Assembly (NCBI GenBank): GCA_963971225.1
Contig: OZ020269.1
Coordinates: 77,352,450-77,416,449, forward strand
Source of the DNA: Melieria omissa
Taxonomy: Eukaryota; Arthropoda; Insecta; Diptera; Ulidiidae
DNA length: 64,000 nt
Direction of reading: 5' to 3'
The notes beneath the pieces are model-generated. The model had not been told where the DNA came from. It saw nothing but the letters and a program-made list of their open reading frames with translations, and did no database searches. Each line of letters starts with the position of its first letter. The first letter of the stretch is position 1. Positions 16,592 through 53,434 of this stretch are shown here, in pieces. The position numbers and the translations under genes were made by a program.

Positions 16592-18745
16592 ATGTCGTAT
16601 TCGAATTCAAGTCACGACGAAGAAGGGTCCGAACCCGAAGTCTGGACTATTGACAACGCGGAAACTCGTTCTGGTCGTTTGCGCGGCGGCGGGGACATGG
16701 ACGATAATGATGACGAGAGGCGCACACGAATTCGCGAAATTCTGAAATGGGTGAAAATGGGTTTTTTGCTTTTTTTGTGGTTAATATTCACCACCATTCT
16801 GCTCTTGGAGCAGGAACACGAACATAAACGTTCATTTTATTTGTGCGTACCTCCGACTCCAGAAATAAAAAATTATGACATGCTCGAGCCTTCGAAATCG
16901 GGTCGAGTGTTTATGAGACTCATGGGTCCATTTGTGTTGCATGCCAGGGAAGAAACCAGATCAGCTCGATCAGGGTCCAGTTTAACTGTGAGGATATTGA
17001 AAGTGAAGGAAGACAATACCAGTGAGCCGATGTCAGATGAATGGGAGATCGACCTGGTGGACCCAAAATTATTCGATTACACTAAGCTGGTGGCTCGTCG
17101 TCGAGCATTTACGTTGACAAATCGTGGTGCTACAGACACGAAAATTCGTATCGAATTCAAAACCAATGTCAACGCGCCGCTATCTTTGGAGTTGGTGTGC
17201 GAACCTTCGCGAGTCTCGGTAAATATTGGCATGATCATGGCATTGATTCTTATCATCGGTTACTACATTCTACTTACCTTGGATATTGTGCACCGCGCCT
17301 TGTCCTCTGTCATATTCTGCACACTGGCGATCAGCATGTTAGCCCTGCTTGAGATGCGTCCATCGCTCATGACCATTATCGGGTGGATCAATTTCGAAAA
17401 GTTGCTGCTGCTTTTCGGCCTCACCATCATTATTGCCATCTTTGCAGAAACTGGTATCATTGATTACTTGGCGGTGCGATCTTACGAGATGGCCAACGGA
17501 CACATCTGGCCTTTGCTGAACTGTCTTTGCTTAATCACTGTGCTAGGTGCCACCCTCTTCGACAACATCTTCATGATACTGATCGCGGCGCCTATCACGC
17601 TGCGTCTCTGCGAGGTGATGGAGCTGAACCCCATTCCAGTGCTAACTTGTCTAATGGTGGCTTCGAATATCGGCTCTGCGGTGACGCCAAACGGTGAGTC
17701 CCCCAACGACTTTATTAATCAGAACGAATACATCAAAGTCCAGGGCGTCACCCAAACCGACTTCGTGGTGCACATATTGCCGGCCACGATTACGGCAGCC
17801 GCCGCGGCGTACGTTTACATGCGAATTCAGTACCATAACTCCAACAAGTTTCGCTACAAGGATGGCGCTGAAGTGGAGCGATTACGGCGCGCTATCAAAG
17901 TGTGGAGCCGCACCGCCAAGAGCATCAGTGCCTACTCAAAAGACGAGAAGATCATGCGAGACACCGTGATGAACAAGGTAGAGCGCTTGCGTCAGCGAAT
18001 GCTACGGCTAGGAAAGATGCCCGTTCCGACGGCGAACTACGAACAAACGGTGAAAGACCTAAAGAAGCAGTACCCCATACGCAATCGCCTCTTGCTCGCC
18101 AAGTGCATTGTCGTTATGACCTTTACGATTTTTATGATTTTAACCGACATAATGACGGATTTTCACCATCTATCTACGGCGTGGACTGCGCTGCTGGGCG
18201 CCCTCTTCCTGCTGATCATCGCAGACACCGAGGACTTTGACGGTATTTTGGGTCGCATCGAATGGTCCACCATGCTCTTTTTAGCCACGGTGTTTGTTTT
18301 CACCGAATGCTTGGACGAGCTGGGCTTCTTTGACACCATCGGCGATTGGACCCGCGGCATCATTATCCGCAGTAGTGACGATGATCGCCTGTCAATCTCC
18401 ATTATAGTTATATTATGGTTTTCCGCTATCGGATCCGCATTCCTCGCCGACAATTCCATAGGAAATATGATGGTTCGTGTGGCTCTCACCTCTTACGAAG
18501 AAATGGGCACAAAGCTACCGTTGCAGCCGATGCTGTGGGCTGTAGTGATGGGCTGCAGCCTTGGCGGCATCGGCACCATAGTCGGCACATACGCCAACGT
18601 CATCTGTGCCGGAGTCGCGGAGAAGCACGGCTACAATTTTCCTTATATCTACTACCTAAAGGTAGGTTTTCCGATCATGGTGACCACCGTCGTAGCCACA
18701 ATGATATATCTGCTGATAGCTCACGTGGCCTTCGAGTGGCAATAA
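16592..18745 (+). CDS. P-protein/hoepel-like multipass transporter (OCA2 family)
   Basis: This 717-residue protein belongs to the P-protein (OCA2)/hoepel branch of the ArsB/NhaD ion transporter superfamily, which acts in organelle or plasma membranes. I start it at ATG 16592: the frame is open further upstream to 16505, but only a TTG lies there. Layout: acidic N-tail (1-55), first membrane segment (56-73), a large extracytosolic domain (about 80-205), a first membrane bundle (about 211-410), a basic cytosolic loop (411-500), and a second bundle (501-713). Family landmarks are FAETGIIDYLAV (284-295), SNIGSAVTPNGESPNDFI (358-375), SAFLADNSIG (615-624) and GGIGTIVGTYANVICAGVAE (658-677). The canonical GDPPN turn is GESPN here and GGNGT is GGIGT, so ion handling may be altered. 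The frame has no introns, which allows a retrocopy origin. It is the only intact host gene in the window. Family assignment is firm; substrate is unknown. Confidence 0.9.
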   Translation: MSYSNSSHDEEGSEPEVWTIDNAETRSGRLRGGGDMDDNDDERRTRIREILKWVKMGFLLFLWLIFTTILLLEQEHEHKRSFYLCVPPTPEIKNYDMLEPSKSGRVFMRLMGPFVLHAREETRSARSGSSLTVRILKVKEDNTSEPMSDEWEIDLVDPKLFDYTKLVARRRAFTLTNRGATDTKIRIEFKTNVNAPLSLELVCEPSRVSVNIGMIMALILIIGYYILLTLDIVHRALSSVIFCTLAISMLALLEMRPSLMTIIGWINFEKLLLLFGLTIIIAIFAETGIIDYLAVRSYEMANGHIWPLLNCLCLITVLGATLFDNIFMILIAAPITLRLCEVMELNPIPVLTCLMVASNIGSAVTPNGESPNDFINQNEYIKVQGVTQTDFVVHILPATITAAAAAYVYMRIQYHNSNKFRYKDGAEVERLRRAIKVWSRTAKSISAYSKDEKIMRDTVMNKVERLRQRMLRLGKMPVPTANYEQTVKDLKKQYPIRNRLLLAKCIVVMTFTIFMILTDIMTDFHHLSTAWTALLGALFLLIIADTEDFDGILGRIEWSTMLFLATVFVFTECLDELGFFDTIGDWTRGIIIRSSDDDRLSISIIVILWFSAIGSAFLADNSIGNMMVRVALTSYEEMGTKLPLQPMLWAVVMGCSLGGIGTIVGTYANVICAGVAEKHGYNFPYIYYLKVGFPIMVTTVVATMIYLLIAHVAFEWQ

Positions 18746-21303: not shown

Positions 21304-22916
21304 CACAGTGGGGTAATATATAAGTAAAGTGCCGATTAATTCAAAAATGAAAAATCAAGATACAACTATGTTTTTGGTACCGGGTTAAAGGGGATAAAAT
21401 TCTGTATCACTATGTGAAAGAGTTGTTGCAAAATAGTTTACCGTTTTCCCGCAAAGCACTCTGAAAGTTGACATTTATTTTCAGTTTTTGTGCGCACAGC
21501 GATAAACGTGTTTTTGTCGTCACTTAAAAACGATTTCTTTGTGTGAATTTGAAAAACTATTGAAAAATTAATGATGCAGCCTTCATGTTCAGGTATTTCA
21601 GCAATGCAATGTGTATTTGGTTTTGTTTAAAAATGTTTATAAGTATTTCATTGAATTTTTTGTTTAAAAGCATAATAATTGTCTAATTTTTTACCTTTTC
21701 ATAGACATATAGTTGTGAGTCTTGTGAGGTCGGGCAAAACTGTTTTCCTTAGCGTATAGTTTAGATATTTCAGTAACATTTTATGAAAAAAAAGTTGCGC
21801 GATGTTGCGCACTTTTCCAGCATTTCGATTTTTGTGTGCGCACCCAAGGGCCTCATGCATGCATTGTGCAAACGAAATTGATGACACTGCACAACAAAAT
21901 CCAATTTTTTTCAAAATAACAAGGTTCTGACAACGGATTCTGGTAGAGGAGGCCAAAAAAAAATATACGTGTATCGGCGTTTTGAAAGTTTACGTCTGAA
22001 TTTTTTTTAGGGGGGGTCAAAGTTTTCCCCTTTTCGCGCATTCTTATGGTGATTCGGCATACGAAAACTATGTAACATCCCATTTTAGGTCAATGATGTG
22101 TTCAGCAATTAGGTGTAAAACACTACGAGGAACATTTTTGTGGAGTACTTTAACCCTGTAGCTGCTATTTATATGGGTCAATTTGACCCTTTTTTCTAAA
22201 ATGTCAAAAATGTCCTGTAAAACAGAACTTTTTAAGGACAAAATGTATCACGAAAATATTCGCCATAAAATTCTACTATAGGTCTATGAATACAGGAAAG
22301 CTCAGAAATTAACTTGAACTCCAGAATTAAGCCAAAACTGAAAATGTGTTTATTGCGTGTTTTCAAAATTGTTCCACTTCGAATGTTTTGTGGAAACAAA
22401 ATTATATGGCAAAACCCGCGACCCGCATCTACACGATTTTGTAGGCCGTTAAAAATTGAATTCATCAAGGAATCTGCAGCAGTTTCTAAAAACGAAAAAG
22501 AAAGAGTCAATGACGAAATAAGAAAATTGCCAAAAAAAACAGTGCAGTATATGCCCAAAGATGCTATGGAGTTGACAATAATGACGAATGATGATAATGG
22601 TGACGGTGATGATTATGATGCTGATGAAGATTATGATGATGATGATAATGATGATTTTAATGATGAAACTAAATTGGCTGCAAGAGACGGCGATGAAATG
22701 TTTTAATTAAACTGTTCAACTTAAATTTCATTTTTCAAATTGTTTTTTTACTATGTTAGTTTTTTACAGTTTCTTAAAAAAATGTCCACTAAAGTATACC
22801 CAAAAACATTTGTTTTTTACTTTATAATGTTCAATTAACTAAACTTAATAGTTATTTCGTATCTAAATAGCCTGGGGGAATTAATCGGCACTTTCGGCAT
22901 CAATTACCCCACTGTG
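21304..22916. mobile_element. CACAGTG-ended element with acidic ORF, copy 1
   Basis: The left end is CACAGTGGGGTAATATATAA and the right end, read inward, CACAGTGGGGTAATTGATGC. A second shared block, AGTGCCGATTAATTC, lies just inside both ends. Flanks are CGTCG (left) and CGCCG (right), a 4-of-5 match to a Transib-type duplication. If the TIR is taken as CGCACAGTG, a perfect 4-bp duplication CCGT fits instead, so the superfamily is open. A nearly identical copy lies at 42473-44074 in different surroundings, so the unit transposes. Copy 2 lacks about 10 bp near 21555. Confidence 0.7.
22314..22706 (+). CDS. Acidic 130-residue ORF of the 1.6 kb element, copy 1
   Basis: The frame is preserved in both copies of the element (also at 43472-43864), differing at the last residue. 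Residues 31-47 read IWQNPRPASTRFCRPLK. A charged region follows, then an Asp-rich tail (about residues 92-118, mostly D, N and E) encoded by a GAT-rich stretch. The WxNPRP...RFCRP block looks like the C-terminal part of a transposase whose upstream exon is missing, but I cannot assign a family. The ATG has no obvious promoter. It may be a remnant rather than a working gene. Confidence 0.45.
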   Translation: MNSRIKPKLKMCLLRVFKIVPLRMFCGNKIIWQNPRPASTRFCRPLKIEFIKESAAVSKNEKERVNDEIRKLPKKTVQYMPKDAMELTIMTNDDNGDGDDYDADEDYDDDDNDDFNDETKLAARDGDEMF

Positions 22917-23397: not shown

Positions 23398-24689
23398 ACA
23401 CTTCGTTCAATAATGTGTGTGACTAACTAATTACAACACATTTTTTTGCCAAAATTCGTTTTTATTCATCAACATAGTCCCCTTTTAGGGAGATACAATC
23501 ATTCCAACGCTTTTCCAATCTTTCGATACCGCCTTTGTAGAACGATTTTTCTTTGCCTTCAAAATAGGCGTTAGTTTCGGGGATTACTTCATCATTTGAG
23601 CCAAATCTCTTACCACGGAGCATCTTTTTGAGGTCTGCGAAGAGCCAGTAGTCGCTGGGGGCCAGATCTGGAGAATACGGGGGATGAGGAAGCAATTCGA
23701 AGCCCAATTCATGCATTTTTGCCATCGTTTTCATCGACTTGTGACACGGTGCATTGTCTTGGTGAAACAACACTTTTTTCTTCTTCATATGGGGCCGCTT
23801 AATCGCGATTTCTTCTTTCAAACGTTCCAACAACGCTATATAATAGTCGCTATTGATTGTTTTCCCTTTCTCAAGATAGTCGATGAATATTATTCCGTGC
23901 ACATCCCAAAATACTGACGCTATAACCTTGCCAGCCGATGTTTGTGCCTTTGGACGCTTTGGGCGGCTTTCACCGGCTGCATGCCACTCAGCAGACTGCC
24001 GATTTGACTCTGGAGTGAAATGGTGGATCCATGTTTCATCCATTGTGATGTACCGATGCAAAAACTCCGACTTGTTGCGCGTAAACATGTCCAAACAGCT
24101 CTTTGAATCATCGATTCGTTGTTGTTTTTGCTCCGGTGTGAGCAAACGCGGCACCCATTTCGAAAACACCTTTTTTATAACCAAATGTTCGTGTATTATG
24201 GTGTGTACACTGCCTGCTGATATCTTTAGAATGTCAGCAATCTCCCCACTTTCACTTTACGGTAGGCCATAATGATTTTCAGTGTTTTTTCAACGTTTTC
24301 CGGAATAACAGCGTCATTTGGCCGTCCAGTAGATGGAATGTCATCGGTGTCTGTACGACCACGTTTGAATTCGGCATACCAATAACAAATGGTTCTTTTT
24401 GATGGAGCAGAGTCCGAATAATGTTTTTCAAGCCATTCCTGGCATTGAACAGTATTTTCTTTCATTAAAAAACAATGATAAATCAGCACACGGAATTGCT
24501 TTGAATTCATTTTTTTTTGAAAACTCAAAAGTAGTGTCATTTAAAGCACTGTAACTTGTAAACTAATGGTCGGATTGACATATAATTTTGACAGTAAGCC
24601 TAAAAAGGTTCACAATTTCGAAAAAAATATTGATTTAGTGTTAGTGCCGCCATCTATGTGTCAGTCACACACATTATTGAACGAAGTGT
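23398..24689 (-). mobile_element. Full-length mariner (irritans subfamily)
   Basis: At 1292 bp, with 27-bp TIRs (ACACTTCGTTCAATAATGTG...) and TA on both sides (23396-23397, 24690-24691), this is a complete mariner. It sits at the downstream edge of the minus-strand LINE that starts near 42470. It is the least decayed DNA transposon in the window apart from a single frame break. Confidence 0.92.
23462..24510 (-). pseudogene. mariner transposase, one frameshift from intact
   Basis: The N-terminal part starts MNSKQFRVLIYHCF at 24510 and includes the first helix-turn-helix (CYWYAEFKRG). The reading frame shifts by one base in a G run near 24250, just after YRKVKV, and continues as EIADILKISAGSVH. 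The catalytic part shows all three acids: MDETWIHH, HQDNAPCHKS and PYSPDLAPSDYWLF, 34 residues apart for the last two. Irritans hallmarks such as WVPRLLT, SAEW and IIFIDYLEKGKTINSDYY are present. Length is otherwise normal (about 345 residues). Function in an intact copy: TA-targeted cut-and-paste. This copy would give a truncated product, but its intact ends could be used by enzyme from elsewhere. Confidence 0.92.
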
Positions 24690-26314: not shown

Positions 26315-27279
26315 TCACTTTGGCGTGGAGTCGATCAAATTTTTTAAAAGATTATGACGTAATCCTTCCCAGACTCGGACAATTGCGTTTTGGAACTGTG
26401 ACACATCCTCGAACTGCCGACAATCGTCGTAAACTTGCCGTGCCATGATGCGATCTTGTTGGGTATTCGAGGATAGGAATATTACGCGATTGTAACATTC
26501 CTTTGTACTTCTCGATGCGTGCACTGCTGCGTTATCCTGCATGAACGTAAAATCCACGGCGGGAAACTTGTCGATATATAGGAGAAGATGTTCCTGAAGG
26601 AGCTCTTGATGCCACGCAGAGTTCAAGCGTGTATCAATAAATGCCAGAGATGCCTTTCCATGATATGAAAATGCACCCAAAACCATTAGAGATCCACCAC
26701 AGAAATTTCTTTTTGAGAAAAGCCTCGGTTCATTGCGCAGATCATGCCAGTAATGTCGAAATCCATCTGGTCCACCTAGATTGAATTTTTTTTCGTCAGG
26801 CCAGATGATCTGGAAGGGTAAGTCAGGCTTAAATTTGACTTTCAAGGCTTAGTTTTGTTTCACTCGCTCCACTCGCTGCACCATGTTTGATCTGCATCTG
26901 CAAACTCGGCTCGTTATGCGTGCGTTTTAGAGCAGGAGCTTTGGACATTTTTGTATATTCTAGGAATTTACTATCCTTTAGTGCCTTACTGTACTGTAAT
27001 ATGGGACACATGTGGTAAAAATAAGCTTCTAAAACGACGCGTGCCTTTTGATGAATTAGAAGCAGCTCTACAAGTGATACGTCTACCGGCTTCGGAAAGA
27101 CTGCTTGGACGACGTGGGCTTCTCTTACTTGCATAAGCTGTTGGATTTCGCAAAAATTTGCGTCCTACCGTGTGACAACGACCAATCCAACGCCCAATTT
27201 CGCTGTTTGTTAGACCTTCGTGTTTAAGAGCGCTTATGACGGCATTTTCTTCTTTTTTTAGTTCCGTATTTCTGCCCAT
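26315..27279 (-). pseudogene. Tc3-like transposase relic
   Basis: The start ATG (27279-27277) lies inside the 5-bp target duplication of a Transib-like insertion, so the gene was cut off from its leader. The N-terminal helix-turn-helix reads LTNSEIGRWIGR then PRRPSSLSEAGRRI. A frameshift near 27040 moves it to MSKAPALKRTHNEP, and another to the catalytic part: WPDEKKFNLGGPDG (first acid), SLMVLGAFSYHGK and FMQDNAAVHASRSTK (second acid). The third acid block expected before IMARQVYDDCRQFE is destroyed. The protein cannot work. Confidence 0.85.
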
Positions 27280-27468
27280 TGCACAGTAATTCGTTCCAGA
27301 GGCAAAATTCAAAAAATTTATAGTCTCAGAATTTAATGATTTTGATGTCATTTGAAAGGTAAAACTCCAACTAAGAAAACCCCAAATAATCTGTGGAAAA
27401 AATTAATTAGTGCCTGTGCAAAAGCTATTAATGCGAGGCATTGCGTTGGTTCAGGAAGGATATAAAGG

Positions 27469-28050
27469 TTAGGAGATAGGGTTAAAAGTGAAGTGGTTAT
27501 GGACTCTTGCCTTGAACCCATCGAGATCATAAGTGCTGGGTAAGATATCCGTAGGGAGACCATTCCACAGCCGCGCTGTGGGAGCCAGAAACGAACTTTC
27601 TCTGTAATGCGTAGTGCGCTGGAACATCGTTTCAACGTGGAATGCATGAGCGCCAGTGTTCAAACGGGTTGCTCGTGGGAATACCCGGAGTGATGGCATC
27701 AAACTGCTCATCTCCAATTCCTGAGCAATTACCGAAGAATTATCGGTAAAATAACACCACACACGCCACGTTTCGACGATGCTCTAAGGAGTTAATAGAG
27801 CTGGATGCCCTACTGTCCCCTATAAGTTTAATCGCACGGTTTTGCACCCGGTCCAGGAGCTCCAAATGGATTTTTTGAAGCCCCCGCCCATAGGTGCGAG
27901 TTAAACTCCTGTTTTGGTTGGATATAGGTAGTGTAAATAATGCGGAGATCAGACGGAGTGAAATATTTTTTGCACCGCTTTAGGAAGCCGAGGCACTTGG
28001 CTGCTTCTTTCGACACGCCAAAAATATGATCGTTCCAACGAAGATCGTTC
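27469..28050 (-). pseudogene. LINE 1 C-terminal domain relic
   Basis: The minus strand reads AAKCLGFLKRCKKYFTPSDL (27960-28010), IIYTTYIQPKQEF, then after frame breaks FHVETMFQRTTHYRESSF and APTARLWNGLPTDILPSTYD. This is the thumb/C-terminal segment that follows the reverse transcriptase in jockey-type elements. It is separated from the catalytic core by the MITE at 28055-28566. Confidence 0.75.
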
Positions 28051-28054
28051 TTAA

Positions 28055-28566
28055 CCCATTTTCGCGGTTTTTGCGAAAAAAATTATCATTCAAGTAAAAT
28101 CGATATATGTATATGCTATCAGTTATTCTTAAAAAACTTATTTTATATAATTTCATTTTAATTTAAATTCATTTGTCGACGTGGCGCCAACGTTGCGAAG
28201 GCGCACCACAAATTCGAGACTTATCTAGAACACGCATAATGACACCCAGATAATTCACAAACCCATTTTATTTTTTCTTTGCCTTTATGTGAACGTATTT
28301 TCAGGTCGACCAAAAAAAGAATTAACGTTTGACAGTTTTCAAAATTTCAAAATTTCAAATTCAAAATTTTTCTGACAAATATGTGTCTACATATACAAGT
28401 GTGTGTGTCAGTGTGTGTTTTGTAGGTGGTTGAGATATGGAGGGAAGAAAGCCTAAGGATATACCTTCCGAACAAAAAAAAATTTATCGCAATACCTCAC
28501 ACACACTGCACATACGAATTTTTTAAATAGTAACGTTGCGTATACGCAACAGAGGAAGGAAATGGG
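28055..28566. mobile_element. TTAA-flanked MITE (512 bp) in LINE 1
   Basis: It is bounded by TTAA (28051-28054, 28567-28570) with ends CCCATTTTCGCGG and inward CCCATTTCCTTCC. Removing it rejoins the LINE phrase seen uninterrupted at 3040-3070 ('gatcgttcttaatg' + 'aacatgcccagaac'), which confirms the insertion. The CCC...GGG ends and TTAA target fit a piggyBac-type MITE. Confidence 0.75.
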
Positions 28567-28570
28567 TTAA

Positions 28571-29430
28571 TGGACATGCCCAGAACATCAAGAGCTACCG
28601 ATTCCGCAATATTCACACCACCCATAACCAGGGATGTGTTGGGATGTGGGGAGACTCGTTTGTGGGATAAGAGGCAACATTGGGTCTTGCGAGGATTAAA
28701 ATCGACCCTATTCGCTTGATCCCACTTGGAGATTGTTTGTGGGTCGCTATTAAGTGTGTCATTCATACGGCGCCGTTCTCTCTCAATCTCCACAGAGCTG
28801 GGGCGCTTTGTAAAGGAGTATGAATGACAAATGGTGCTGTCATCCGCAAACGAGTAGATGGGATTCTTCGTCGACGACAATAGGTCGTTCATCAACGACC
28901 TATTGTCGATAAGGAAAAGGGTTGGAGAAAGGACCGAACCCTGCGGCACTCCCGCGCTAAGGGAATGCTTTTCCGAGGCTATACCGTCTATTACAACACG
29001 AATAGGGCGATCATAGAGGAAGCTCGTATTCCAACGAGAGAAGATACTACCGACGCAATCAATAGGCAATCAATTTAGACACGAGTGCTTTATGCCACAC
29101 CCGGTCAAAGGCCTTAGAAATATCCAATGCAACAACCTTGCTTTCACCGAGGTTTAGAATGCTATGGTTCCATTTCTCGGTGAGGACCGCCATAAGGTCT
29201 CCCGTCGATCGCTGTCTTCGAAAGCCGTATTGGCGGTCACTTAGCAGTCTATTGTGTTCCAGATATTTCACAAGGTTGAAGTTTACAATGCTTTCCATTA
29301 CTTTGGAAAGCACCGAACAGATAGCTATAGGTCGGTTGTTCGCAGGGTCAGTAGTCTTGCCTCTTTTAGGAACTGGTTGAACATTTGCTACCTTCGAGCA
29401 TGTCGGAAATACACCTGTGGTGTATGACAT
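28571..29430 (-). pseudogene. LINE 1 reverse transcriptase relic
   Basis: The core motifs are all recognisable in order: NNRPIAICSVLSKVMESIV, YGFRRQRSTGDL, VVALDISKAFDRVWH (first catalytic Asp), LSAGVPQGSVLSPTLF, and SFADDSTICHS (FADD active site). One frame break separates the two halves near 29060. The catalytic acids are kept, so the copy is not ancient. It would copy element RNA at a nicked target if intact. The tail past SPHPNTS runs into the MITE insertion. Confidence 0.88.
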
Positions 29431-29515
29431 GTTGAAAAGTTTGCGTAATGGACAAGCCAGCTAAGTAGCGCATTTTTTCAAAACAAGGGCTGGAATGCCG
29501 TCCGGCCCTGAAGCC

Positions 29516-30172
29516 TTATTTACATCGAGATTTGCGAGCACTCTTGTAACTACCCGTGTCCGAAAATGAATTTCTGGCATAGAGCAAGATACGTTCTCGA
29601 CTAAGGGTAGTGGTTGATCGCTGGGGGGCAGGGAGGAATTCTATGCCAAAAATTTTCGCCAACAAATTAGATTTTTCAACCGAGTGAGTGATGATTTGAT
29701 CATTGTTAGGAAGATTTGGAATTGAAGACGATGTTTGGTTCTTCACCTTCTTAACGAATGACCAGAAGTTCTTACTGCCACGCTGGCATTGAAGAATTTT
29801 TTTCCTTTGGCGCTGTTCGTGCAGAAACTTTTGGCGCCTTAGGATGGCATTGCATCAATTTGTAGCCTGTTTACGCAGCTGTTCAGTGGTGGCATTTTTA
29901 TTTTCCTGCCATGCTCTGAAAGCTTCCTCTTTAGACCTGACAGCAATTCTGCATGTCTCACTAAACCAGATATTGTCCTTAGGTTTAATGCAAATTTGCT
30001 TATTGGGGATGAAGGACCGCATTCCCAATAATATTATTTCTTCAAGCATTTTGGCTGCGGCATTTATGTTTCTATCAAGAAAACACAATTTCCAATTGAA
30101 GTGGGCGAAAAATTCATAAAGTCCACTGCAGTTAGCTTTATCATACATCCACACTAGGCGCTTCGGGGCTAA
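29516..30172 (-). pseudogene. LINE 1 endonuclease-to-RT linker relic
   Basis: The minus strand encodes PKRLVWMYDKANCSGLYEFF, CIKPKDNIWFSETCRIAVR and KEEAFRAWQENKN, the 'W-f-s..c..a...K..af..W' type linker between endonuclease and reverse transcriptase in jockey-like elements. It continues toward 29516 with frame breaks. Its upstream part is separated by the MITE at 30173-30593. Confidence 0.65.
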
Positions 30173-30593
30173 AGGCTTGATTACACGTAACGAGTAGAGT
30201 GACAAGACAGCAACTCGAACGAGTACTCGTTTCGTCTAAATAGTAAGGCGAGTTGTTGATCGAGTCAGTGACCGATGAAAGCGGCGAGAGAGTCACTAGA
30301 ATCACATTTTGTTTGCTAGGCCGAGCACTACTTTACCGTTAAATTTTTCTCTTTTTCGCAGCGATTCGCGGAATCGCTCGTCACATGCGGAATGCGTCAC
30401 ACACCACTTTTCGCTCGGTTGAGCTTGATTGCGCGAGTTGCTTAGTTCATTTTGTGCATTGTAAAACCGAACTGACTCGCCACGTGTCAAAATACGTTTG
30501 AACAACTCGTCGCTTTTGCTCGCTATCCCAATTCTTTCGGCCTAGTACCATTTTGATGTCTCGTCACTCGACTCGTAACGTGTAATCAAGCCT
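30173..30593. mobile_element. Harbinger-like MITE (421 bp) in LINE 1
   Basis: The TIR is AGGCTTGATTACACGT on both ends, extending about 30 bp with few mismatches. TAA is duplicated outside (30170-30172, 30594-30596). The LINE reading continues across it. It has internal AACTCG/CGAGTT-type repeats in both orientations and is non-coding. Confidence 0.75.
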
Positions 30594-30650
30594 TAAGAGC
30601 GAAGCATTGCGGATAGAAGAGTATGAGAAAGACGCCAAAATGGTACAATG

Positions 30651-31591
30651 CACAGTGATTCGTTCCATAGACAAAATTCAAAAAATGTATAGTCTCAGAA
30701 TTTAATGATTTTCATGTCATTTGAAAAGTAAAACTCCAACTAAGAAAACCCCAAAAAACCTGTGCAAAAAATTAATTAGTGTGTGTGCAAAAGCGGCTCA
30801 AAGTTTAAACTTTTTTCTCAAAAAAATGTAAGCACATATTTTCTGTGTTTTAGTCTATTGAGTACAAAAAATTTTACAAATACATGGTTAGCAAGAAGTT
30901 GCTTAAACTTTCAATATAAAATAAGAAATGATGTGGCCAGTTTCGCTTTTAATGTTTTCTCAAAACTTGCAAAGCGTAGGCTTTTACTTCACTTTTAATT
31001 TAAAATATTTTTCTAAATTAAAAATCTGAAAATCGGCAAAACTTAAAGGAAAATATCTAAAAAGTATGTGAAAGTATGTTCCTGGATTTTTTTTTATTTT
31101 AAGCAGCATTCTTCCTTTGTCGGTTAATGTAATTACATCCTCCGATATCTTCCGATCTCAGAAAATAATTCAATTTGAAAAGTGGTCTAAACACGTATTT
31201 TTCGACAAAATTTATTTAATTTATGCCTAAAAGTATGCAATCAGCACGAAAAATGATAAAATCTGCAAAAATGCAAAACATACATCTATTATTATCGTTT
31301 CTATTGCAAACGCAGACAATTTCTGTTACTCTTTGGAATAATCAATGTTGACGTTACCGATTAAATGTAAAACCTGAAAAATCTAGCCAACACACTCGTT
31401 GCTATAGCTCAACAAAAACGACGAAAATTGCAAATTTAAGTCTCAGGCATTGCTAAACTATAACAGTTTAAGAAAAACTAAATGGAGATTTCAATTCAGC
31501 AGACCATGTTTAATTAGTATACCAAATTTTATGAAGAACGGACCACTCCTTCTAATTTTGTCCCGCGGTTGTATGGAGTCGAATCACTGTG
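30651..31591. mobile_element. Transib-like element, copy c (best preserved)
   Basis: Both ends are exact CACAGTGATTCG and its inverse, with a perfect 5-bp duplication CAATG (30646-30650, 31592-31596). It interrupts LINE 1 inside the endonuclease GNSDHC motif. At the 5' end, CACAGTG is followed by 13 bp and ACAAAATTC. At the 3' end, read inward, CACAGTG is followed by exactly 23 bp and ACAAAATTA. The 941 bp hold no transposase. This copy is nested in LINE 1, which is nested in copy e/d of the same family. Confidence 0.85.
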
Positions 31592-31596
31592 CAATG

Positions 31597-32230
31597 GTCC
31601 GAGTTTCCAAGAGGTGCGTGCATTTCAACATCATATTTTTCATGATGTGAAGTGAGAAAAAGGTCTAGAGTATTGAGAGCTTGCCCCGCAACGCAGGGGA
31701 TATGCGTTGGTTCATGCACTAATTGAGTCAAGTTATTAGACTCGGCAAAGAGCTCGACAAAAAAGCCTTCAGGAGTTGTGTGGCTGGAATGGCGTAGCCA
31801 ATTGGAATTATGCATATTGAAATCACCAGCAACTACAATTTCACTATTCGGATACGATTCCAGAATCTGAGAAATAGAATCAGAGAGAAGATTAAACTTG
31901 TTATAAATAAAATCTCTCCCTGAATTCGGGCGGCAGAAGGAAGCAGAAGTGCAGAATGTGCGACTGGATATTGAATTTAACCCACATGGAGCTAAATTCG
32001 GCATCCGTCGTGTATAGTTGTTGCTGGCACTGGTACGCAACATTACTGCTCACATAAATGGCAAGACCCCTGTGAGGAGAGAATAATGGCAGTAGGTGGT
32101 TACCAGGGATGTGAAAATCCAGTGGATCTGCATCCCCACACACCTGGGTTTCACCTAATGCCATTACATGGGGTTTATGGAGGTTAACAAATGCGTATAC
32201 AGCAAAAAAGTTCGCCCTGAGCCCGCGCAC
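31597..32230 (-). pseudogene. LINE 1 endonuclease relic
   Basis: The minus strand shows LHKPHVMALGETQVCGD (GET catalytic region), LAIYVSSNV, then after one frameshift near 31960 EIVVAGDFNMHNSNWLRHS (GDFN), ALNTLDLFLTSHH (T-x-D-L) and LGNSDHC (SDH), where the Transib-like copy c cuts in. All main APE-type motifs are present. This is the nicking domain that starts target-primed reverse transcription. Confidence 0.85.
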
Positions 32231-32859
32231 GTTGCAGAAATTGGTGAAATTGGCGAAATTGGTCCAGCACCATGGCCCGGGTGGGTTAAAGAAGAAGGGA
32301 AGTAGCCGGGAATGCGATCTGCCGCACTAAGAAATTTACTATGCTCTGCGGTAAGTGTTATGCCTTTACCACAGAACAGTTAATTTGTCAGTGTCGAACA
32401 AGACCGCATGTAGCGCCACTGAATACGGACGGAGGAGGGACACACGGAAAGAGAACCACAAACAACACAACGCGTGCAGAGTTTAACGCGGTGGACGGTG
32501 AGTTAACGGCATTTTTGATTCGATGATCGATTTCGTTGCGTTTTTTATTTATATTTGTTTAATTTGTTTGTTGGCACACGCGGGGTAGCTGACACCGTGT
32601 AAAAAGACAAATACAACAGGCGGACGAACATTAATACAAGCGCGAGACGGATAAAAACATTAAAAACCGGGAGCACAAAAAGGCACGTCTGCCCACGCGT
32701 AGCTGTGTTGACACCATTCAATTTAGTCTATTGAGGGAAAAAAATTGTAAAAATACATGGTTACCAAGAAATTGCTACAACTTTCAATATAGATTAAGAA
32801 ACGATGTGGCCATTTTCGTTTTTAATGTTTTCTCAAAATTTGCAAAGCTGAGGCTTTTA

Positions 32860-33378
32860 CGTGGGCAGTCCGATAAGTACTTAGCCCCACTGCCCGATGG
32901 TGCCACTATCATAAGACAGATTTACTATCGTGTAGTACATCCTCGTAGACGGCTAGTGTCAAAATGTCAGCCATATTGGATTTGTAGTTTTGTTTTCACC
33001 GCGTGTGGAAACGAACGTGTCCGCGGATTTTAGAAAAATAGAAAAAGAGCTATATTGGTCGGTGATTCGCCAAATTGGTCGCATTAGGCTACGAACAGCT
33101 GCCCCATCCACCGTATTCTCCAGATTTTTCCTCGTGTGACTTCTTTTTGTTTGAACTTGAAAAAGTCACTCGCCGGGCAGAAATTTGAATCGAATGTGGA
33201 GGTTATCGCCGCCACGGAGGCCTCCAGAAAACGTATTTTTCAGACGGGTTAAAGAAGTTGGAGCATCGGTGGGTCAAGTGTATCGAGTTGAAAGGGGACT
33301 ACGTTGAGAAATAAATCGCCACTTTTCCAAAAATTTCATTTTTCTTTTGTAGGCTAAGTACTTATCGGACCATCCACG
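32860..33378 (+). mobile_element. Deleted mariner in Transib-like copy d
   Basis: The TIRs share TCCGATAAGTACTTAGCC and are flanked by TA (32858-32859, 33379-33380). The 519 bp keep only the C-terminal part of the transposase: PHPPYSPDFSSCDFFLFELE (third catalytic Asp region), then, after a frameshift, LKKLEHRWVKCIELKGDYVE and a stop. The first two catalytic regions are deleted. Confidence 0.85.
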
Positions 33379-33689
33379 TACATCACTTTTAATTCAAAAT
33401 ATTTTTCCAAATTAAAAATCTGAAAATTGGCAAAACTTAGAGGAATATATCTAAAAAGTATGTGAAAGTATGTTCCTGGATTTTTTTATATTTTAAGAAG
33501 CATTATTTCTTTTTTGGATAATGTAATTATATCCTCCGATATCTTCCGATCTCAGAAAATAATTCAATTTTAAAAGTGGTCTAAACACCTATTTTTCGAC
33601 GAAATTTTTTTTTTTATGCCTTAAAGTATGCAATCAGCATGCAAAATTGATAAAACTGCAAAAAAGCAAAACATACTTCTTCTTTTAAT

Positions 33690-33958
33690 AATTAATAATT
33701 TTAATAATTGACTGGCACGACAGCCCGCTTACGCGAGACTAAGGCCTAGCTTCCCGCAACCACCAGAGTTGTGCGTGTGAATTTGTACGCGGGTGGAAGG
33801 GACCTACAGTTTTTCACAAGCAATTTTTACTCTCAGAGAGAAAACGCCGGAAACGCCACCGAAAGAGAAAACGAGAAAACGAGTATTGAATCTGAGGTTG
33901 CTGCCTTCGACTCGCGGTCCCACGCACTAACAAACTGAGCCACGGCGGCTGCCTTTTA
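33690..33958 (-). mobile_element. tRNA-derived SINE, second copy
   Basis: This is the same family as 4755-5083, on the minus strand and more diverged. The head (GCCGCCGTGGCTCAGTT) is at 33936-33952 and the ATT-type tail is near 33690-33712. An internal deletion removes part of the mid-body. It lies in the right half of Transib-like copy e/d. Confidence 0.8.
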
Positions 33959-34388
33959 TTATTATTATTATCGTTTTTATTGAAAAACTAAAGGGTCCTG
34001 AGACAATTTATGTTACTCTTTGCAATTACCAATGTTGACGTTACCGATTAAATGTAAAATCTGAAAAATCTAGCCAACACACTCGTTGCTGGAGCTCACC
34101 AAAAATTACGAAAATTGCAAATTTAAGTCTCAGACATTGCCAAACTACAAAAGTTTAAGAAAAACGAAATAGAGATTTCAATACAGCAGACCATGATTAA
34201 GTAGTATGCCAAATTTTATGAGGAACGGACCACTCCTTCTAATTTTTGTCCCGCGGTTGTATGGAGTCGAATCACTGTGCATTGCGTTAAACACGTTTTT
34301 ATGAATTAATTTTTACAATAAAAGTTTGACAAAAAAGTCAAAGACCGTACAAAAATAAAATATTGTAAGTGGTGCTATCATTTCTTAA

Positions 34389-34982: not shown

Positions 34983-35161
34983 TTAACGCTTGTGAAAGGG
35001 ACTTTTTTATGTAAATTCATATTTTGTCCTTTGTATCGAACATTTTGGAATTTCGGTGCTGGACATTATTTAAATATACATATGTAATCGATATTTTGAC
35101 CAAGTTTTTTCATTCTTCGATCATTAGTAGGGAAGTTATGATACAAAAGGTCAATGGTGCT

Positions 35162-35966
35162 GGGTCAAATTTTCTCAAGTGGGCCACTTTAAAATCGATG
35201 GTCTCAGTTTTCGTTGATCAATACGGTTTTCGATCGGCTTGGAGGTAAAAACGACACCCCAAAAATAATTTTGAAAAAAAATGTTTTTTCATTAGTTATT
35301 TACAGTTAAAGTTTTTGATCATGTTTTTTTCAAAAATTCATAACTCACGAACGGTTTATCGGAACTCAACGTTTTCTACATAAAAAAAATCATTATTTTG
35401 CATTCGGTCAAAAGTTATACATGTTTTTGTGACCTCGCTCCTACCTCTAGCGCTGGAAAAACACGTATTGACGCGCGCGCGCTTAGTTATCGTGTGGCAC
35501 GATTACCAAAACGGTCACAAAAACATGTATAACTTTTGACCTAATGAAAAATAATGGTTTTTTTTTACCAGAATTTTTGTAAGGGATTGTAGAATTGAAT
35601 GAAATGTGTCAAAATTTTCTCGCTGGCGGAGAAGTTTAATTAATTTTCAATTATTTACAACAAATAGGATTTTTCAGCTAAATAATAATTTTTTTGTGAA
35701 GAAAGATTTTTTCATGGCAAAGTATATTAATTGACAAAAATTTTGATGTAGAAAACGTTGAGTTCCGATAAACCGTTCGTGAGTTATGAATTTTTGAAAA
35801 AAACATGATCAAAAACTTTAACTGTAAAAAACTAATGAAAAAAACATTTTTTTTTTTTATTATTTTTGGGGTGTCGTTTTTACCTCCAAGCCGATCGAAA
35901 ACCGTATTGGTCAACGAAAACTGAGACCATCGATTTTAAAGTGGCCCACTTGAGAAAATTTGACCC
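35162..35966. mobile_element. Foldback MITE with about 280-bp arms, GCT duplication
   Basis: It starts GGGTCAAATTTTCTCAAGTG and ends with its inverse, between identical GCT trinucleotides (35159-35161, 35967-35969). The two arms are nearly perfect inverses over about 280 bp each, around a 200-bp centre. GGG ends with a 3-bp duplication would fit Zator- or Harbinger-type elements, which is not proven. It is inserted in the right TIR of the Tc3-like element. Confidence 0.7.
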
Positions 35967-35990
35967 GCTATCATTTCTTAACGCACTGTA

Positions 35991-36168: not shown

Positions 36169-38414
36169 AGGAGTGAACCAGAAAAATGTTAGAATTTTTA
36201 CGCATCCAGCATACGAAAATGCCAAGAGTTAGGAGGCTGGTATTTGCGAGTGAAAGTATCTACAAATATTGCAGTTTCTTGCTATATTCGTCTATTGCAT
36301 CTTGGATCTACTTTAGTCAACATGCGCAGCCCACAAAAGTGCTGCCACAAATTAATACTGGACATTTACTTGACTGATAAGACGAAGTCTAGACTAAGCA
36401 TTGCAAGGGAAAGCAAAGCGAGCGTAGCGACGGTTTATAATGTTATAAACAACTACAACGCGGAAACACCATCCGAGCCGAAGAATTAGGCAGAAAAACG
36501 GGTCCAAGTAACCCAGAAGTACTGAAGAGGGTTGTTAGCACATATCGGAATAACCCGACGAGGTCGACTTGAGATGTTGCAGCTGCATCAGGCACATCGC
36601 AATCAACTGAGATGCGATATACAGTCTGTCCAGTAGAAGCGTGAACGACCAAATTGTCACTTAGAGTACCGATATCAAAAAAACTTGAATGCACCTAAGA
36701 AGCCTCATCATTTTTGTAATACGCATTGCAAAACTTGTCAGTCTCGTGAAACAATTACAAAGTGCACGGTGTTTTAACAAAATGAGTTCCGCATGAGAGA
36801 AGCGACTTGAAGCCGTACTCCTTTTTCTACACCCTAGAGGGCCATAAATGTCACGTTTAGCTGCAGCAAAATATATGAAGAAGTCGACGTCATTCGTAAC
36901 GAAGTGAACGAATCGGTTTATGGAAGCAAAAAATGTCGACGATTTGGCTTGCCGGGGCCTCGAAAAAAAGACCTCCCCAAAACAGGACAAGAAAATCATT
37001 GATTTGTTTGCGACAAAGCCGGACTTATCGTTGCGTAAAGCTAAAGCAGTTTTAGAGAAAACTGGTGTTCAAATATCAAAAGAGACGATTCGAGGACGTG
37101 CAAGAACTGACGACGTTAAATACCGGAGCTCTTTGAAAACAAAGTTGCTCTCATCATCACACGTTCAAAAACGGCTTGCCTGGGCTTAGGCCAATTCAAA
37201 TCGGAATTGGAATAATGTAATATTCACGGATGAACTCCAATTTTGGGCAAATAGTAGCAAAAATCGATCTTGGTGTGCCGCCATCAACCGATTGTTCCAA
37301 CAAACTGTTAAAGACCCAGTAAAGGTCCATGTTTGGGGCTGCTTCTCAGAAAAATCATTTGGGCGACTTTTCTTTATTACCACCAACTTGAACGCGGTTT
37401 TGATGAACAAAATTTATGAAAAAGCTTTATTACCACCAGCTGCGGAGATGTTCAGGAGAAGAGGACTCTCTTGGATTATACAATAAGGCAACGACCACAA
37501 ACATCGCAGCCGAATGTGTGCTGAGTGAAAACAGCAAAATGAGGTGGAAGTGTTAGATTGGCCCTCACAATCGCCTGATGCCAACCCGATAAAAAATGGG
37601 TGGGCAATAGTAAAGCAGAAACTCAGAGGAAAAACTATATGAGCAGCAAAACAGTTATCGAGACAAATTCATATTTCAAATAGCGAAGACGCAGGCTCGA
37701 AAACTGTATGACGATTACGTTACCAAATTCGATTGAGTGATTCTCGATGATGAAACCTACCTACTTGCCTGGGAATGCCTATTTCACTACAAATAATAAT
37801 AATGGAACTCAAAGAAAATACTCCGAAGTGAAATACACCAAATTTCTAAACGCTTTATGGTTTGGTAAACGCTCCTGCGGTCTACGGAGCAAGGCGTTCA
37901 TTACGACAGGAATAATTAACTCTAGAATGTATATAAAAGAATGTCTGCAAAAACGCTTTATACTAATTATTGAATAGCACAAGGGAACAGTTTTATTTTG
38001 GCCAGACCTACCGACAAGCCACTACTACAGATCAACTATGGAATGGTATGAAGAAAATTGTGTCACGGAGGTCCCAAAAGAGGCAAATCCTCCCAAATGC
38101 CTGGAACTTCGGCCTATTGAAAGATATTGTGCTGTAATGAAGCAAACCTTAAGAAAACAAACAACGTTTGCAAAAATGATGTACTGTTCTGAAATCGATG
38201 GAAGCAAGCCTATGCAATAGTCACCGAATGTACTGTCCAGTCTCTAACTAAGAACGTTAAGAAAAATATAAAAAAATTTTGTAACCACTAATTATATTTC
38301 ATAAATTTTTTTTGTGAATTAGAGTTTAAGAAATGTATAATAAGCTGCAAATCAGACAATTACCTTGTTTTTAATGTGTCCTTTAAAATTCCAAATTTTT
38401 TCTGGTTCACTCCT
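36169..38414 (+). mobile_element. Tc1/mariner-type composite (one element in another)
   Basis: The ends AGGAGTGAACCAGAAAAA and its inverse are bounded by TA (36167-36168, 38415-38416). The outer element keeps an N-terminal helix-turn-helix (SIARESKASVATVYNVINN, about 36395-36455) and a C-terminal catalytic block, NPPKCLELRPIERY, at about 38088-38130, with WPDLPTSHYY before it. Between them (about 36700-37740) lies a separate Tc1-like transposase. I could not find clean TIRs for the inner one. Confidence 0.6.
36920..37620 (+). pseudogene. Tc1-like transposase relic (inner)
   Basis: The paired DNA-binding part (PDLSLRKAKAVLEKTGVQIS) is followed by NVIFTDELQFW (first Asp, about 37220-37250), VHVWGCFSEKSFGRLFF, a QGNDHKHRS block (second Asp) and WPSQSPDANPIKNGW. 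In the last, the expected catalytic Glu of NPIE is Lys. There are at least three stops. It is inactive both by frame and by active site. Confidence 0.8.
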
Positions 38415-40968: not shown

Positions 40969-41928
40969 CACTATGATCAATAAGTACCGGGACTGTGTAT
41001 TTTAAATTTTCCGCCGTTGCCCGATGCAGGTAAACACATTTTTTTTAGGTCGGTAGGACCTTAACATAACTGACATCTGTGCCAAATTTTGAGCGGGATT
41101 GCATCATTAGTTTTTGTTTGGCAGCTGTTAGCGTCAGTCAACTTTTTGTACTTCGTCGCATTTTACAATGGATAATTTTCTTGATCAACGTATTTGTTTG
41201 AAATTTTGTCTTAGGAACGAAATTTCTTGTGCCAATGCGCTTAAAATGTTGCAGAAAGCATTTGGGGAGTCTGCTCTATCAAGAACCGGAGCGTTCGAGT
41301 GGTATAAAATGTTCAAAAGTGGTCGTGAAGTGGTCGAAGACTTTCCTCGTTCTGGACGTCCTTCAACATCGAATACCGACGAAAATGTTGAAATTGTGAA
41401 GAAAATCTTGCTTGAAAATCGTCATGTGAGCCTCAGAGAGATTTCTAACAATCTTAACATCTCTTATGGAAGCGCACAACACATTGTTGTCGATATTTTG
41501 CGCATGAAACGCGTCGTCGCACGGCTTGTTCCTCAAGACTTGAATTTCGTCCAAAAATATCATCGAAAGCAAGTGGCTGAAGACATGATTTCAGAAGCTA
41601 AGAAGGACCCAACGTTCATGAAACGTATAATTACTGGTGATGAGACATGGGCCTATGAATTCGACGTGACAACTAGCCAGCAATCATCCGAATGGCGTGC
41701 TGATGGCGAGCCAAAACCAAAAAAAGTGCGCCATTGTAAAATGCGACGAAGTACTAAAAGTTGACTAACTAACTAACAGCTGCCAAACAAAAACTAATGA
41801 TGGAATCCCGCTAAAAATTTGACACAGATGTCAGTTAAGGTCCTACTGACTAAAAAAATTTTTTTACCTGCATCGGGCAACGGCGGAAAATTTAAAATAC
41901 ACAGTCCCGGTACTTATTGATCATAGTG
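40969..41928 (+). mobile_element. mariner with 200-bp inverted arms (5' end duplicated)
   Basis: It is bounded by TA (40967-40968, 41929-41930). Instead of a short TIR, about 200 bp at each end are inverse copies. The left arm runs from the tip through the leader to the first codons of the transposase (40969-41168), and the right arm (41731-41928) repeats this in reverse. The proper 3' half of the element is missing. It is inserted in the pogo-like element. Confidence 0.88.
41168..41764 (+). pseudogene. mariner transposase, 3' truncated
   Basis: An open frame covers the N-terminal half: two helix-turn-helix parts (SRTGAFEWYKMFKSGR and REISNNLNISYGSAQ), linker, the first catalytic block ITGDETWAYEFD and SSEWRADGEPKPKK. 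The frame then runs into the inverted copy of the element's own 5' end at 41731 and gains a foreign tail (VRHCKMRRSTKS) before the stop. Two of the three catalytic Asp are lost. The DNA-binding half looks intact and could in principle bind element ends without cutting. Confidence 0.88.
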
Positions 41929-42472: not shown

Positions 42473-44074
42473 CACAGTGGGGTAATATATAAGTAAAGTG
42501 CCGATTAATTCAAAAATGAAAAATCAAGATACAACTATGTTTTTGGTACCGGGTTAAAGGGGATAAAACTCTGTATCACTATGTGAAAGAGTTGTTGCAA
42601 AATAGTTTACCGTTTTCCCGCAAGGCACTCTGAAAGTTGACATTTATTTTCAGTTTTTGTGCGCACAGCGATAAACGTGTTTTTGTCGTCACTTAAAAAC
42701 GATTTCTTTGTGTGAGTTTGAAAAATTAATGATGCAGCCTTTATGTTCAGGTATTTCAGCAATGCAATGTGTATTTGGTTTTGTTTAAAAATGTTTATAA
42801 GTATTTCATTTAATTTTTTGTTTAAAAGCATAATAATTGTCTAATTTTTTACCTTTTCATAGACATATAGTTGTGAGTCTTGTGAGGTCGGGCAAAACTG
42901 TTTTCCTTAGCGTATAGTTTAGATATTTCAGTAACATTTTATGAAAAAAAAGTTGCGCGATGTTGCGCACTTTTCCAGCATTTCGATTTTTGTGTGCGCA
43001 CCCAAGGGCCTCATGCATGCATTGTGCAAACGAAATTGATGACACTGCACAACAAAATCCAATTTTTTTCAAAATAACAAGGTTCTGACAACGGATTCTG
43101 GTAGAGGAGGCCAAAAAAAAATATACGTGTATCGGCGTTTTGAAAGTTTACGTCTGAATTTTTTTTAGGGGGGGTCAAAGTTTTCCCCTTTTCGCGCATT
43201 CTTATGGTGATTCGGCATACGAAAACTATGTAACATCCCATTTTAGGTCAATGATGTGTTCAGCAATTAGGTGTAAAACACTACGAGGAACATTTTTGTG
43301 GAGTACTTTAACCCTGTAGCTGCTATTTATATGGGTCAATTTGACCCTTTTTTCTAAAATGTCAAAAATGTCCTGTAAAACAGAACTTTTTAAGGACAAA
43401 ATGTATCACGAAAATATTCGCCATAAAATTCTACTATAGGTCTATGAATACAGGAAAGCTCAGAAATTAACTTGAACTCCAGAATTAAGCCAAAACTGAA
43501 AATGTGTTTATTGCGTGTTTTCAAAATTGTTCCACTTCGAATGTTTTGTGGAAACAAAATTATATGGCAAAACCCGCGACCCGCATCTACACGATTTTGT
43601 AGGCCGTTAAAAATTGAATTCATCAAGGAATCTGCAGCAGTTTCTAAAAACGAAAAAGAAAGAGTCAATGACGAAATAAGAAAATTGCCAAAAAAAACAG
43701 TGCAGTATATGCCCAAAGATGCTATGGAGTTGACAATAATGACGAATGATGATAATGGTGACGGTGATGATTATGATGCTGATGAAGATTATGATGATGA
43801 TGATAATGATGATTTTAATGATGAAACTAAATTGGCTGCAAGAGACGGCGATGAAATGTTGTAATTAAACTGTTCAACTTAAATTTCATTTTTCAAATTT
43901 TTTTTTTACTATGTTAGTTTTTTACCGTTTCTTAAAAAAATGTCCACTAAAGTATACCCAAAAACATTTGTTTTTTACTTTATAATGTTCAATTAACTAA
44001 ACTTAGTAGTTATTTCATATCTAAATAGCCTGGGGGAATTAATCGGCACTTTCGGTATCAATTACCCCACTGTG
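42473..44074. mobile_element. CACAGTG-ended element with acidic ORF, copy 2
   Basis: It is nearly identical to 21304-22916 over its full length (1602 bp, one short deletion), in the same orientation, 21 kb away and in unrelated flanks. Flanks here are CGACG and CGCCT, with no clear duplication, so a rearrangement at one side or imprecise integration is possible. Confidence 0.75.
43472..43864 (+). CDS. Acidic 130-residue ORF of the 1.6 kb element, copy 2
   Basis: It has the same frame as 22314-22706. The only protein difference I see is the final residue (Leu for Phe). It has the same IWQNPRPASTRFCRPLK block and Asp-rich tail. Preservation in both copies reflects their recent common origin and is not by itself proof of function. 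Confidence 0.45.
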   Translation: MNSRIKPKLKMCLLRVFKIVPLRMFCGNKIIWQNPRPASTRFCRPLKIEFIKESAAVSKNEKERVNDEIRKLPKKTVQYMPKDAMELTIMTNDDNGDGDDYDADEDYDDDDNDDFNDETKLAARDGDEML

Positions 44075-45115: not shown

Positions 45116-47530
45116 TGGGCATCTCCCAGTGGCACGGACGCGACATTCGCACGCTTTCAATTACATAAAAAACAAGAAAGAAACACAAAAAGTCGATATG
45201 TTTTTTTAGTGTTCTAGCGCGCTGAAATAGTGCTACATTTTAGAAATATATTGGAAATATTTAGTACAAATTAGTACAAAATAAGAAGCAATTATGCAAT
45301 GAAACGGACGCGACAAAACAAAGAAGTTTTTTTGAAGCTCTTATAGAAATATACAAAATTTAGCGATTTTTGGGAACTTTTTTTTATATATATACATGCA
45401 AATGAAGGTCAAAGGATAACTTTTCTTCGTAGACTTATGAAATATGAGAATTTTGTCTTACCTTTCTTTAATTAGGTATATCATGAATACGGACACGACA
45501 TCACGGACGCGACAAATTTTTCCAAGGGTATTCCCCTTATTAAATACAGTAATCGTTTTCATTAAAACACTTCAACTTTTAATAAAAATAACACATAACA
45601 AGTAAAATTCAAGTTACAGCAATCAAAATAAGGAAAAATTAAAGTTAAAAGTTCTTAGTGTGGTTTATTTAATTTTCCTGAGGAACTCTATTGGAATTAG
45701 ATCTTGTTTAAAATCGCGCACACAGCTCTTACAATCATTAGCAATGCACCTTTCATTCATCACATCGCAGCAAACTGGTTTTAGAAATAACTTAATAAAT
45801 TAATTAAATTAAATTAATTAACTAGCTGAACATATTTGTACAGTATTTTTCATTAACCCTTTCCGGAAATTTGTATGATATATCGTACACTTTGTTTTAA
45901 AGATTTTTTTTGACAGCGAACGTTTTTTTTATGAAACGGCTTTTAAATTCTTATTAAGTAGATTATGTTTTACCATTCTGTTTGAAAATATAAATCACAA
46001 TAGCCGTGGGTATACAGTGTGAGTGCGATTTGTAAGCAGCTCTTTGCAAGAATTTGGCGATGCTATGCTTCTGCGGCGGAATTTTTGAATATGTAATACT
46101 TTTTAGTAGCAAAAAGACAAACAATTTCAAAGTTTGAATCTCAGTTGATTTATAAAACTTATTAAATTTAAAAATTTTGGCTTCTAAATATTTTTCCCGA
46201 GCCTTTAAAAGATTGTATGATATATCGTACAAATGACCACAAGGGTTGCAAAGCTTTGTACGATTTATCGTACAAATGGCAGGCAAAGGTGCAAGTGATG
46301 TTTGCATTTTTTTTAAGTTATGGATTGGTAACAGAATTTTTCTGTTTGCTTGAATGCCACGCCCGTCACTAAATCGTATGACTAATACAATTCGACTGAT
46401 CGACTATTTCTATTCAGAAATAACGATTACTTAACGATTTTGTGTTTCACTGGGCAGACACAGATTATGTAAGGTTAGACATGAGTACTTGCCACTCCCA
46501 CTACGATAATAAGAATCAGCTATATTCGGTATCTTTCTACAATGCTATATGGTGTTTGGTTGATTCTGTGTTTTATTGAGGGGAAAAGGGCTTTGCAACA
46601 GCAAAGCGGTTTTATAAGGCCTGATAGATGTTACTCAATTGTTTATATATATAATTTATATAGTTTTCGATCAATGAAATCACGTTTTGATTTTTGTTGT
46701 TAAATTTATATTTTCTTATCAAATAAACCAATGAATTGTTCATAAAATAAAAAAAAACCAAAAAAAAGTTTCATGCATTTTTACTCCTTTGCGGACCATT
46801 GTACGATATATCGTACAAAATTGCTGAAGCTGTTATTCTCAACCAAAATTATTATTTTTTTTGATATTTTCTTGTATTTTATTGCTAAAATGTTCAATGA
46901 GAGTCAATATTTTGAAAAAAAAAATTGTATCTCAAGAAATGCGGAAATTTACCGGAAATCGAAAAACAATCGAATCGATTCAGAGCTTCCGGTTACGGAC
47001 GCGACAAATTTTAAACACCCATACAATTTTTTTCCGATTTTGCCGGGAACCAATTATTATATTTTCCTAACGGGAACAATGCACCTATTTAAAAACTGAC
47101 AGCTACTTGCATTTGAAAAGTTTGTCCACTAATGGCAACAACTAATAAGGTTTTTTGGGCACGGACGCGACAATAAGATACAGGAAGAAGCAAACTAAAA
47201 AAACTTCCGTTCTTCGAACTCCACTTTCTCTCGCTTTCTGTAATACATAAGATTGTTGTTAGTAGAAAACTTTTGCATTACAAGAAAAATATAATATTAC
47301 TTGAATAAGATAAAAACGGAAAGACAAAATGTGCATATAATTCGTCAAAAGGCTCAGAAACAAATTTTTTTCTTTTACAGTAGTATATTTCGGCCAAAAA
47401 TTAAAAAAAATTAAAAATTCTTTTACATTTATAAAATATAGATATTTAAGCTGTATTATTGGATAATAAAAAGTTTTTCTGAGCAATTTGAATTTTTCAC
47501 TCGTGGTGGACCTTTTTTGGGAGATGCCCA
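45116..47530. mobile_element. 2.4 kb TIR element, tandem copy 1
   Basis: It starts TGGGCATCTCCCAGTGGCAC and ends GGGAGATGCCCA, a 13-bp perfect TIR (TGGGCATCTCCCA) with TA outside both ends (45114-45115, 47531-47532). The interior holds at least six direct copies of CGGACGCGAC (45133, 45305, 45490, 45503, 46996, 47162) and several near-palindromes of the type TGTACGATATATCGTACA (45880, 46212, 46257, 46800). No transposase was recognised. The TA duplication suggests the Tc1/mariner order, but the length and repeats are unusual. Confidence 0.7.
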
Positions 47531-51310: not shown

Positions 51311-51314
51311 TGGC

Positions 51315-53327: not shown

Positions 53328-53434
53328 AATTAAATTAAATTAAATTAAATTAAATTAAATTAAATTAAATTAAATTAAATTAAATTAAATTAAATTAAAT
53401 TAAATTAAATTAAATTAAATTAAATTAAATTAAA
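53328..53434. repeat. (ATTAA)n microsatellite
   Basis: There are about 21 uninterrupted pentanucleotide units, beginning right after an (AAAT)n run. It borders the Helitron-like repeat on its right. Confidence 0.95.

Follow-up and report, generated by a model that had tools for sequence, protein, structure and literature searches.

The window, by which we mean the whole 64-kb stretch of DNA analysed, contains four copies (a to d, found by BLAST within the window) of a short transposable element, hereafter family 1, with pairwise identities of 89-93%. Copy c (30651-31591, plus strand, 941 bp) carries the 5-bp target-site duplication CAATG on both flanks (30646-30650 and 31592-31596), in agreement with the initial annotation. 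Direct reading also confirmed, to the base, the claimed layout of its two ends, each of which begins with the exact RSS heptamer CACAGTG. At the left end (30651-30679, plus strand), the heptamer (30651-30657) is followed by a 13-bp spacer (30658-30670) and ACAAAATTC (30671-30679); at the right end, read inward (31553-31591, minus strand), the heptamer (31591-31585) is followed by a 23-bp spacer (31584-31562) and ACAAAATTA (31561-31553). The two ends are alike over their first ~20 bases (CACAGTGATTCG..TCCATA), after which the right end has ~10 extra bases relative to the left end, and then ACAAAATT.

The copies of family 1 and their surroundings

Copy a (8570-9538, plus strand, 969 bp) is bordered at either side by CAATG and has spacers of 13 and 23 bp and altered heptamers (CGCAGTG and CACGGTG). 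Copy b (14477-15220, plus strand, 744 bp) is bordered at either side by CACCG and has a right spacer of 23 bp; at its left end, the first 15 bp are followed directly by what corresponds to copy c from about position 237 onward, so that there is no left ACAAAA block. Copy d (27282-34279, plus strand), flanked by CATTG, comprises four pieces (27282-27425, 32722-32860, 33379-33680 and 33963-34279), between which lies other sequence that includes copy c and ORFs of retrotransposons. Because these pieces are colinear and have identical CATTG flanks, we infer from the sequence that they form one copy, and on the same grounds the division into two copies (27282-27425 and 32722-34279) was rejected.

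Perfect 5-bp duplications thus accompany all four copies. Copies b and c have the heptamer CACAGTG intact at either end; in a, each end departs from it by one base, and in d the left end alone does so. The left spacer is 13 bp long in the three complete left ends (a, c and d; the incomplete left end of b, which lacks the block, was excluded from this count). Right spacers measure 23 bp in 4/4 right ends, or 5/5 with the divergent relative h described below. As the four copies are so alike, their common spacers say little about selection.

The longest stop-to-stop frames comprise 103 (a), 80 (b) and 72 (c) codons; in d, its two longest pieces reach 39 codons each. The 103-codon frame of copy a (8996-9307, minus strand) had no match in Pfam or PDB, and no recognisable transposase coding sequence was found in the copies examined within the window. 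When the window was scanned for CACNNTG in inverted orientation at distances of 200-8000 bp, two pairs had identical 5-bp flanks, namely copies b and c; copies a and d escape this pattern because their left heptamers are changed. A loose scan of the window for family 1 ends gave, in addition to those already recognised, four hits (6-10 mismatches) that we take as chance. The end patterns had no match in viral_contigs and genome_contigs, as expected for an insect element, and among the papers listed in literature searches on Transib in Bactrocera and Tephritidae, none concerned family 1 by title.

Between the first two pieces of copy d lie two minus-strand ORFs (31555-32049, with an endonuclease match, and 28500-29069, with a reverse transcriptase match), which we read as a putative non-LTR retrotransposon; copy c is located among these ORFs. 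When the flanks of copy c are joined, the endonuclease frame is open across the site for ~20 codons, followed by another small element; as the frame is open over so short a distance, its continuity is weak support. If the pieces of d are one copy, family 1 would have inserted both before and after the retrotransposon.

Other repeats and remnants were noted in the window. A short element with inverted ends of ~45 bp (89% complementary) adjoins copy c at 30169-30597, and long nested inverted repeats (93-96% complementary) occupy 35153-35975. Tc1/mariner-type transposase-like remnants lie at 7326-8041, 23462-24540, 41132-41764, 26315-26848 and 36908-37486; an HTH_48 match was found in 41135-41764 and a DDE_3 match below the cut-off in 26318-26848, the others being called by eye from translations. 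The ORFs at 46746-47099 and 49237-49509 have, by eye, a long identical C-terminal stretch, so that a segment seems to be duplicated. A 749-codon open frame (16496-18745) resembles a P-protein-like transporter, and its four named best relatives (49-52% identity) belong to the tephritids Rhagoletis, Zeugodacus, Ceratitis and Anastrepha.

Assignment of family 1 and its relatives in the window

The window has 16 occurrences of the heptamer CACAGTG, as compared to 4.4 expected from shuffles; ten of these occurrences are ends of family 1 (five), of a second family (four) and of h (one), and the other six are unassigned. The second family, family 2, comprises two elements of ~1.6 kb that both end in CACAGTG, the heptamer alone being common with the ends of family 1. 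The first copy (21304-22916, plus strand) has inverted ends of 39 bp (CACAGTGGGGTAAT) with an equal layout at both, which lack a comparable nonamer-like block (best match 5/9), and the second (42473-44074, plus strand) is 98.6% identical to it. A 137-aa ORF of the first copy (22293-22706, plus strand) matches, with its residues 24-82, residues 133-192 of the transposase of HzTransib, a Transib of Helicoverpa zea (PDB 6pqn, 6pqn_A; E 1.3e-9). This ORF had no match in Pfam, and three in a protein-database search in which a query of such length finds only short proteins (two unnamed, one from Brassicogethes aeneus). Family 2 has probably arisen from a Transib by deletion. A perfect 5-bp duplication is absent from both of its copies, whose flanks are CGTCG/CGCCG and CGACG/CGCCT; given their 98.6% identity, this is odd.

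The element end h (50936-51035, plus strand), the right end of a family related to family 1 (73.5% over 102 aligned columns), reads CACAGTG, 23 bp and ACAAAAAGA. With GTTTG as its flank, h departs from the Transib target motif. A search of 51,000-56,000 for a partner end with this flank gave no convincing one; a single weak candidate was rejected for its 3/7 heptamer mismatches.

From the following lines of evidence, we propose, with a probability of about 0.88, that family 1 is a non-autonomous (MITE-like) transposon of the Transib superfamily in a tephritid-like fly, this membership resting on the ends and the target sites since no transposase of its own was found in the window. First, the 5-bp duplications of the four copies are typical of Transibs (PMC4411706; this and the other articles referred to by PMC number are cited from excerpts). 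Second, all four target sites fit CANNG and three of them fit CANTG (CAATG twice and CATTG), while these motifs occur at 1.1% and 0.42%, respectively, of the positions of the window; the CACCG of copy b does not fit CANTG, but fits CABHG. These sites resemble the motif CCANTGG given, with a modal duplication of 5 bp, for hopper and transib2 of D. melanogaster, the motif given earlier for transib2 being CABHG (PMC3276498, excerpts), although each family 1 site agrees with CCANTGG at just one of its two outer bases; the likeness to these two elements is one of duplications and targets. Third, the heptamer is base for base that of the RSS, and the spacers keep their lengths of 13 bp (3/3 complete left ends) and 23 bp (5/5 right ends). 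Fourth, a Transib relative, the CACAGTG-ended family 2 with its HzTransib-like ORF fragment, lies in the same window. Against the assignment count family 2, which has the heptamer alone in common with family 1 ends and lacks perfect duplications, and h, with neither a convincing partner end nor a fitting flank. The initial annotation is supported in so far as it read the element as an insect Transib whose RSS-like ends have unequal spacers of 13 and 23 bp.

That family 1 could belong to another superfamily with CAC ends, for instance Chapaev, CACTA or hAT, would be compatible with our not having found its transposase, and we regard it as highly improbable. The 5-bp duplications found in 4/4 copies speak against it. 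When the 92 inverted CACNNTG pairs with at least 11 of 20 terminal bases alike were inspected for identical flanks of 3, 4, 5, 6 and 7 bp, these occurred in 2, 0, 2, 0 and 0 pairs, respectively. The resemblance of the target sites to the published Transib motif (PMC3276498, excerpts) also speaks against such a membership.

For the Transib assignment, a plausible course of transposition can be drawn. A Transib transposase encoded elsewhere would recognise CACAGTG together with ~13 further terminal bases common to both ends, and would excise the element by nick and hairpin, as described for HzTransib (PMC6941560, excerpts); the element would then insert at CANTG-type sites with duplication of 5 bp. 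Both this transposase and every step of the chemistry are what we infer. With their distances of 13 and 23 bp, the ACAAAA blocks might in addition contact the transposase, act as nonamers or underlie a pairing rule.

The ACAAAA blocks at unequal distances from the heptamers

We call nonamer-like a block in which 6-7 of 9 bases match the nonamer consensus ACAAAAACC (PMC8289069, excerpts). The motif was picked only once the sequence had been read, so that every chance figure in this text is post hoc; moreover, the two ends resemble each other beyond the ACAAAA block as well (ATTCG..TCCATA). Among 200,000 random inward pairs from the window, 0.12% match ACAAAAACC equally well or better (7/9 on the 12 side and 6/9 on the 23 side, spacers ±1, in either order), and 0.65% reach 6/9 on both sides. 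The two 60-bp subterminal regions were also dinucleotide-shuffled 100,000 times: ACAAAA then occurred at both places once, a shared 8-mer occurred at the two places (12/23 ±1) 59 times (0.06%), and a shared 8-mer occurred anywhere in the two regions 8,405 times (8.4%).

A serious contender, to which we give somewhat less than an even chance, is that family 1 is a Transib and its ACAAAA blocks are leftover similarity between inverted ends, offset by 10 bp through an indel in one of them. First, conservation in the block does not differ significantly from that of the adjacent columns (0/6 versus 17/48 differing columns, p = 0.16, from the window copies and the one divergent relative h). Second, the left block of copy d is altered to GCAAAATTC, its first A being changed, in one of the three complete left ends. 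Third, copy b has no left block and yet has perfect duplications, although for this single copy a loss before insertion and one after it would both be compatible. Fourth, a shared 8-mer somewhere in the two regions is not rare, as judged from the 8.4% of shuffles. Fifth, in the excerpted literature the ends of HzTransib show little or no similarity to the nonamer (PMC8289069), and invertebrate RAGL enzymes are thought to depend mainly on the terminal 15-17 bp (PMC7204232). Such leftover similarity accounts less well for the 0.06% of shuffles with a shared 8-mer at 12/23 ±1, for the same arrangement in other insect Transibs (PMC8355894, excerpts) and for h, in which 7 of the 23 spacer columns differ while ACAAAA and the length of 23 bp survive. 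The unchanged stretch of h extends, however, on either side of ACAAAA (GGGACAAAA..AGAAGGAG). A claim that conservation is greater in the outermost 46 bp at the right was dropped, its p = 0.0012 having counted columns beyond the h alignment; over the first 100 positions, 9/47 outer versus 19/54 inner columns differ (p = 0.08), and the other three cut points give p = 0.19 to 0.37.

That the blocks are true nonamers, and that the ends must be unequal for transposition by a 12/23-like pairing rule, would agree with the spacings of 13 and 23 bp, which are about one DNA turn apart, like 12 and 23, with the rarity (0.12%) of random pairs having 7/9 and 6/9 matches at these spacings, and with the preference of ProtoRAG for its unequal end pair (PMC8289069, excerpts). 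We consider it unlikely, as every point that favours leftover similarity counts against it, and so does family 2, which lies in the same window with equal ends and no comparable block. Still a little less likely is the specific form in which a fly Transib transposase would enforce the pairing of the 13-bp and 23-bp signals via nonamer-type contacts and without RAG2; if true, it would be a living 12/23 rule outside vertebrates.

Relation to other Transibs and to V(D)J signals

Family 1 resembles Transib5 of D. melanogaster and Transib2, N1, N2 and N3 of A. gambiae, which are likewise from dipteran hosts, in having a heptamer and a nonamer-like block at 12 ±1 and 23 ±1, a likeness drawn from published descriptions. 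These elements are described as having a 12/23 asymmetry with spacers of 12 or 23 ±1, and heptamers and nonamers of which some are identical to canonical RSSs, with a chance below 10^-3 given for the match in sequence; a hypothesis on the origin of V(D)J recombination has been built on this asymmetry (PMC8355894, excerpts). As excerpted, another report states that all Subgroup I Transibs have asymmetric TIRs and that Subgroup II has both kinds (PMC9435367). A third is worded differently, Transib ends having identical heptamers and nonamers with "spacers of various lengths" (PMC6941560). HzTransib, matched by the family 2 ORF, differs from family 1 by its symmetric ends (PMC8289069, excerpts).

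As compared to the 12RSS and 23RSS used by RAG1/RAG2 in V(D)J recombination, family 1 has the exact heptamer CACAGTG, the first six bases of ACAAAAACC and a spacing of 12+1 and 23. It differs from these signals in being an insect transposon, in having heptamer-adjacent sequence common to both spacers, and in matching the nonamer at 7/9 at most. With the ProtoRAG and RAGL transposons, as far as the excerpts describe them, it has in common asymmetric ends, a CAC start and 5-bp duplications (PMC7204232, PMC8289069), whereas they carry RAG2-like genes, and in ProtoRAG the spacers are 27/31 and the second element, TR5, is a different one.

The 12/23 arrangement of family 1 is not new, since the Drosophila and Anopheles cases are in print (PMC8355894, excerpts). 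The initial annotation had seen in it a bearing on whether this arrangement predates RAG in jawed vertebrates, a point already published and argued in that article as excerpted; because the pattern is both in print and debated, family 1 alone leaves the story of V(D)J origins unchanged. With family 1, the insect Transibs whose RSS-like ends are unequal gain another fly family, and with it short natural substrates for asking whether a Transib transposase senses spacer asymmetry.
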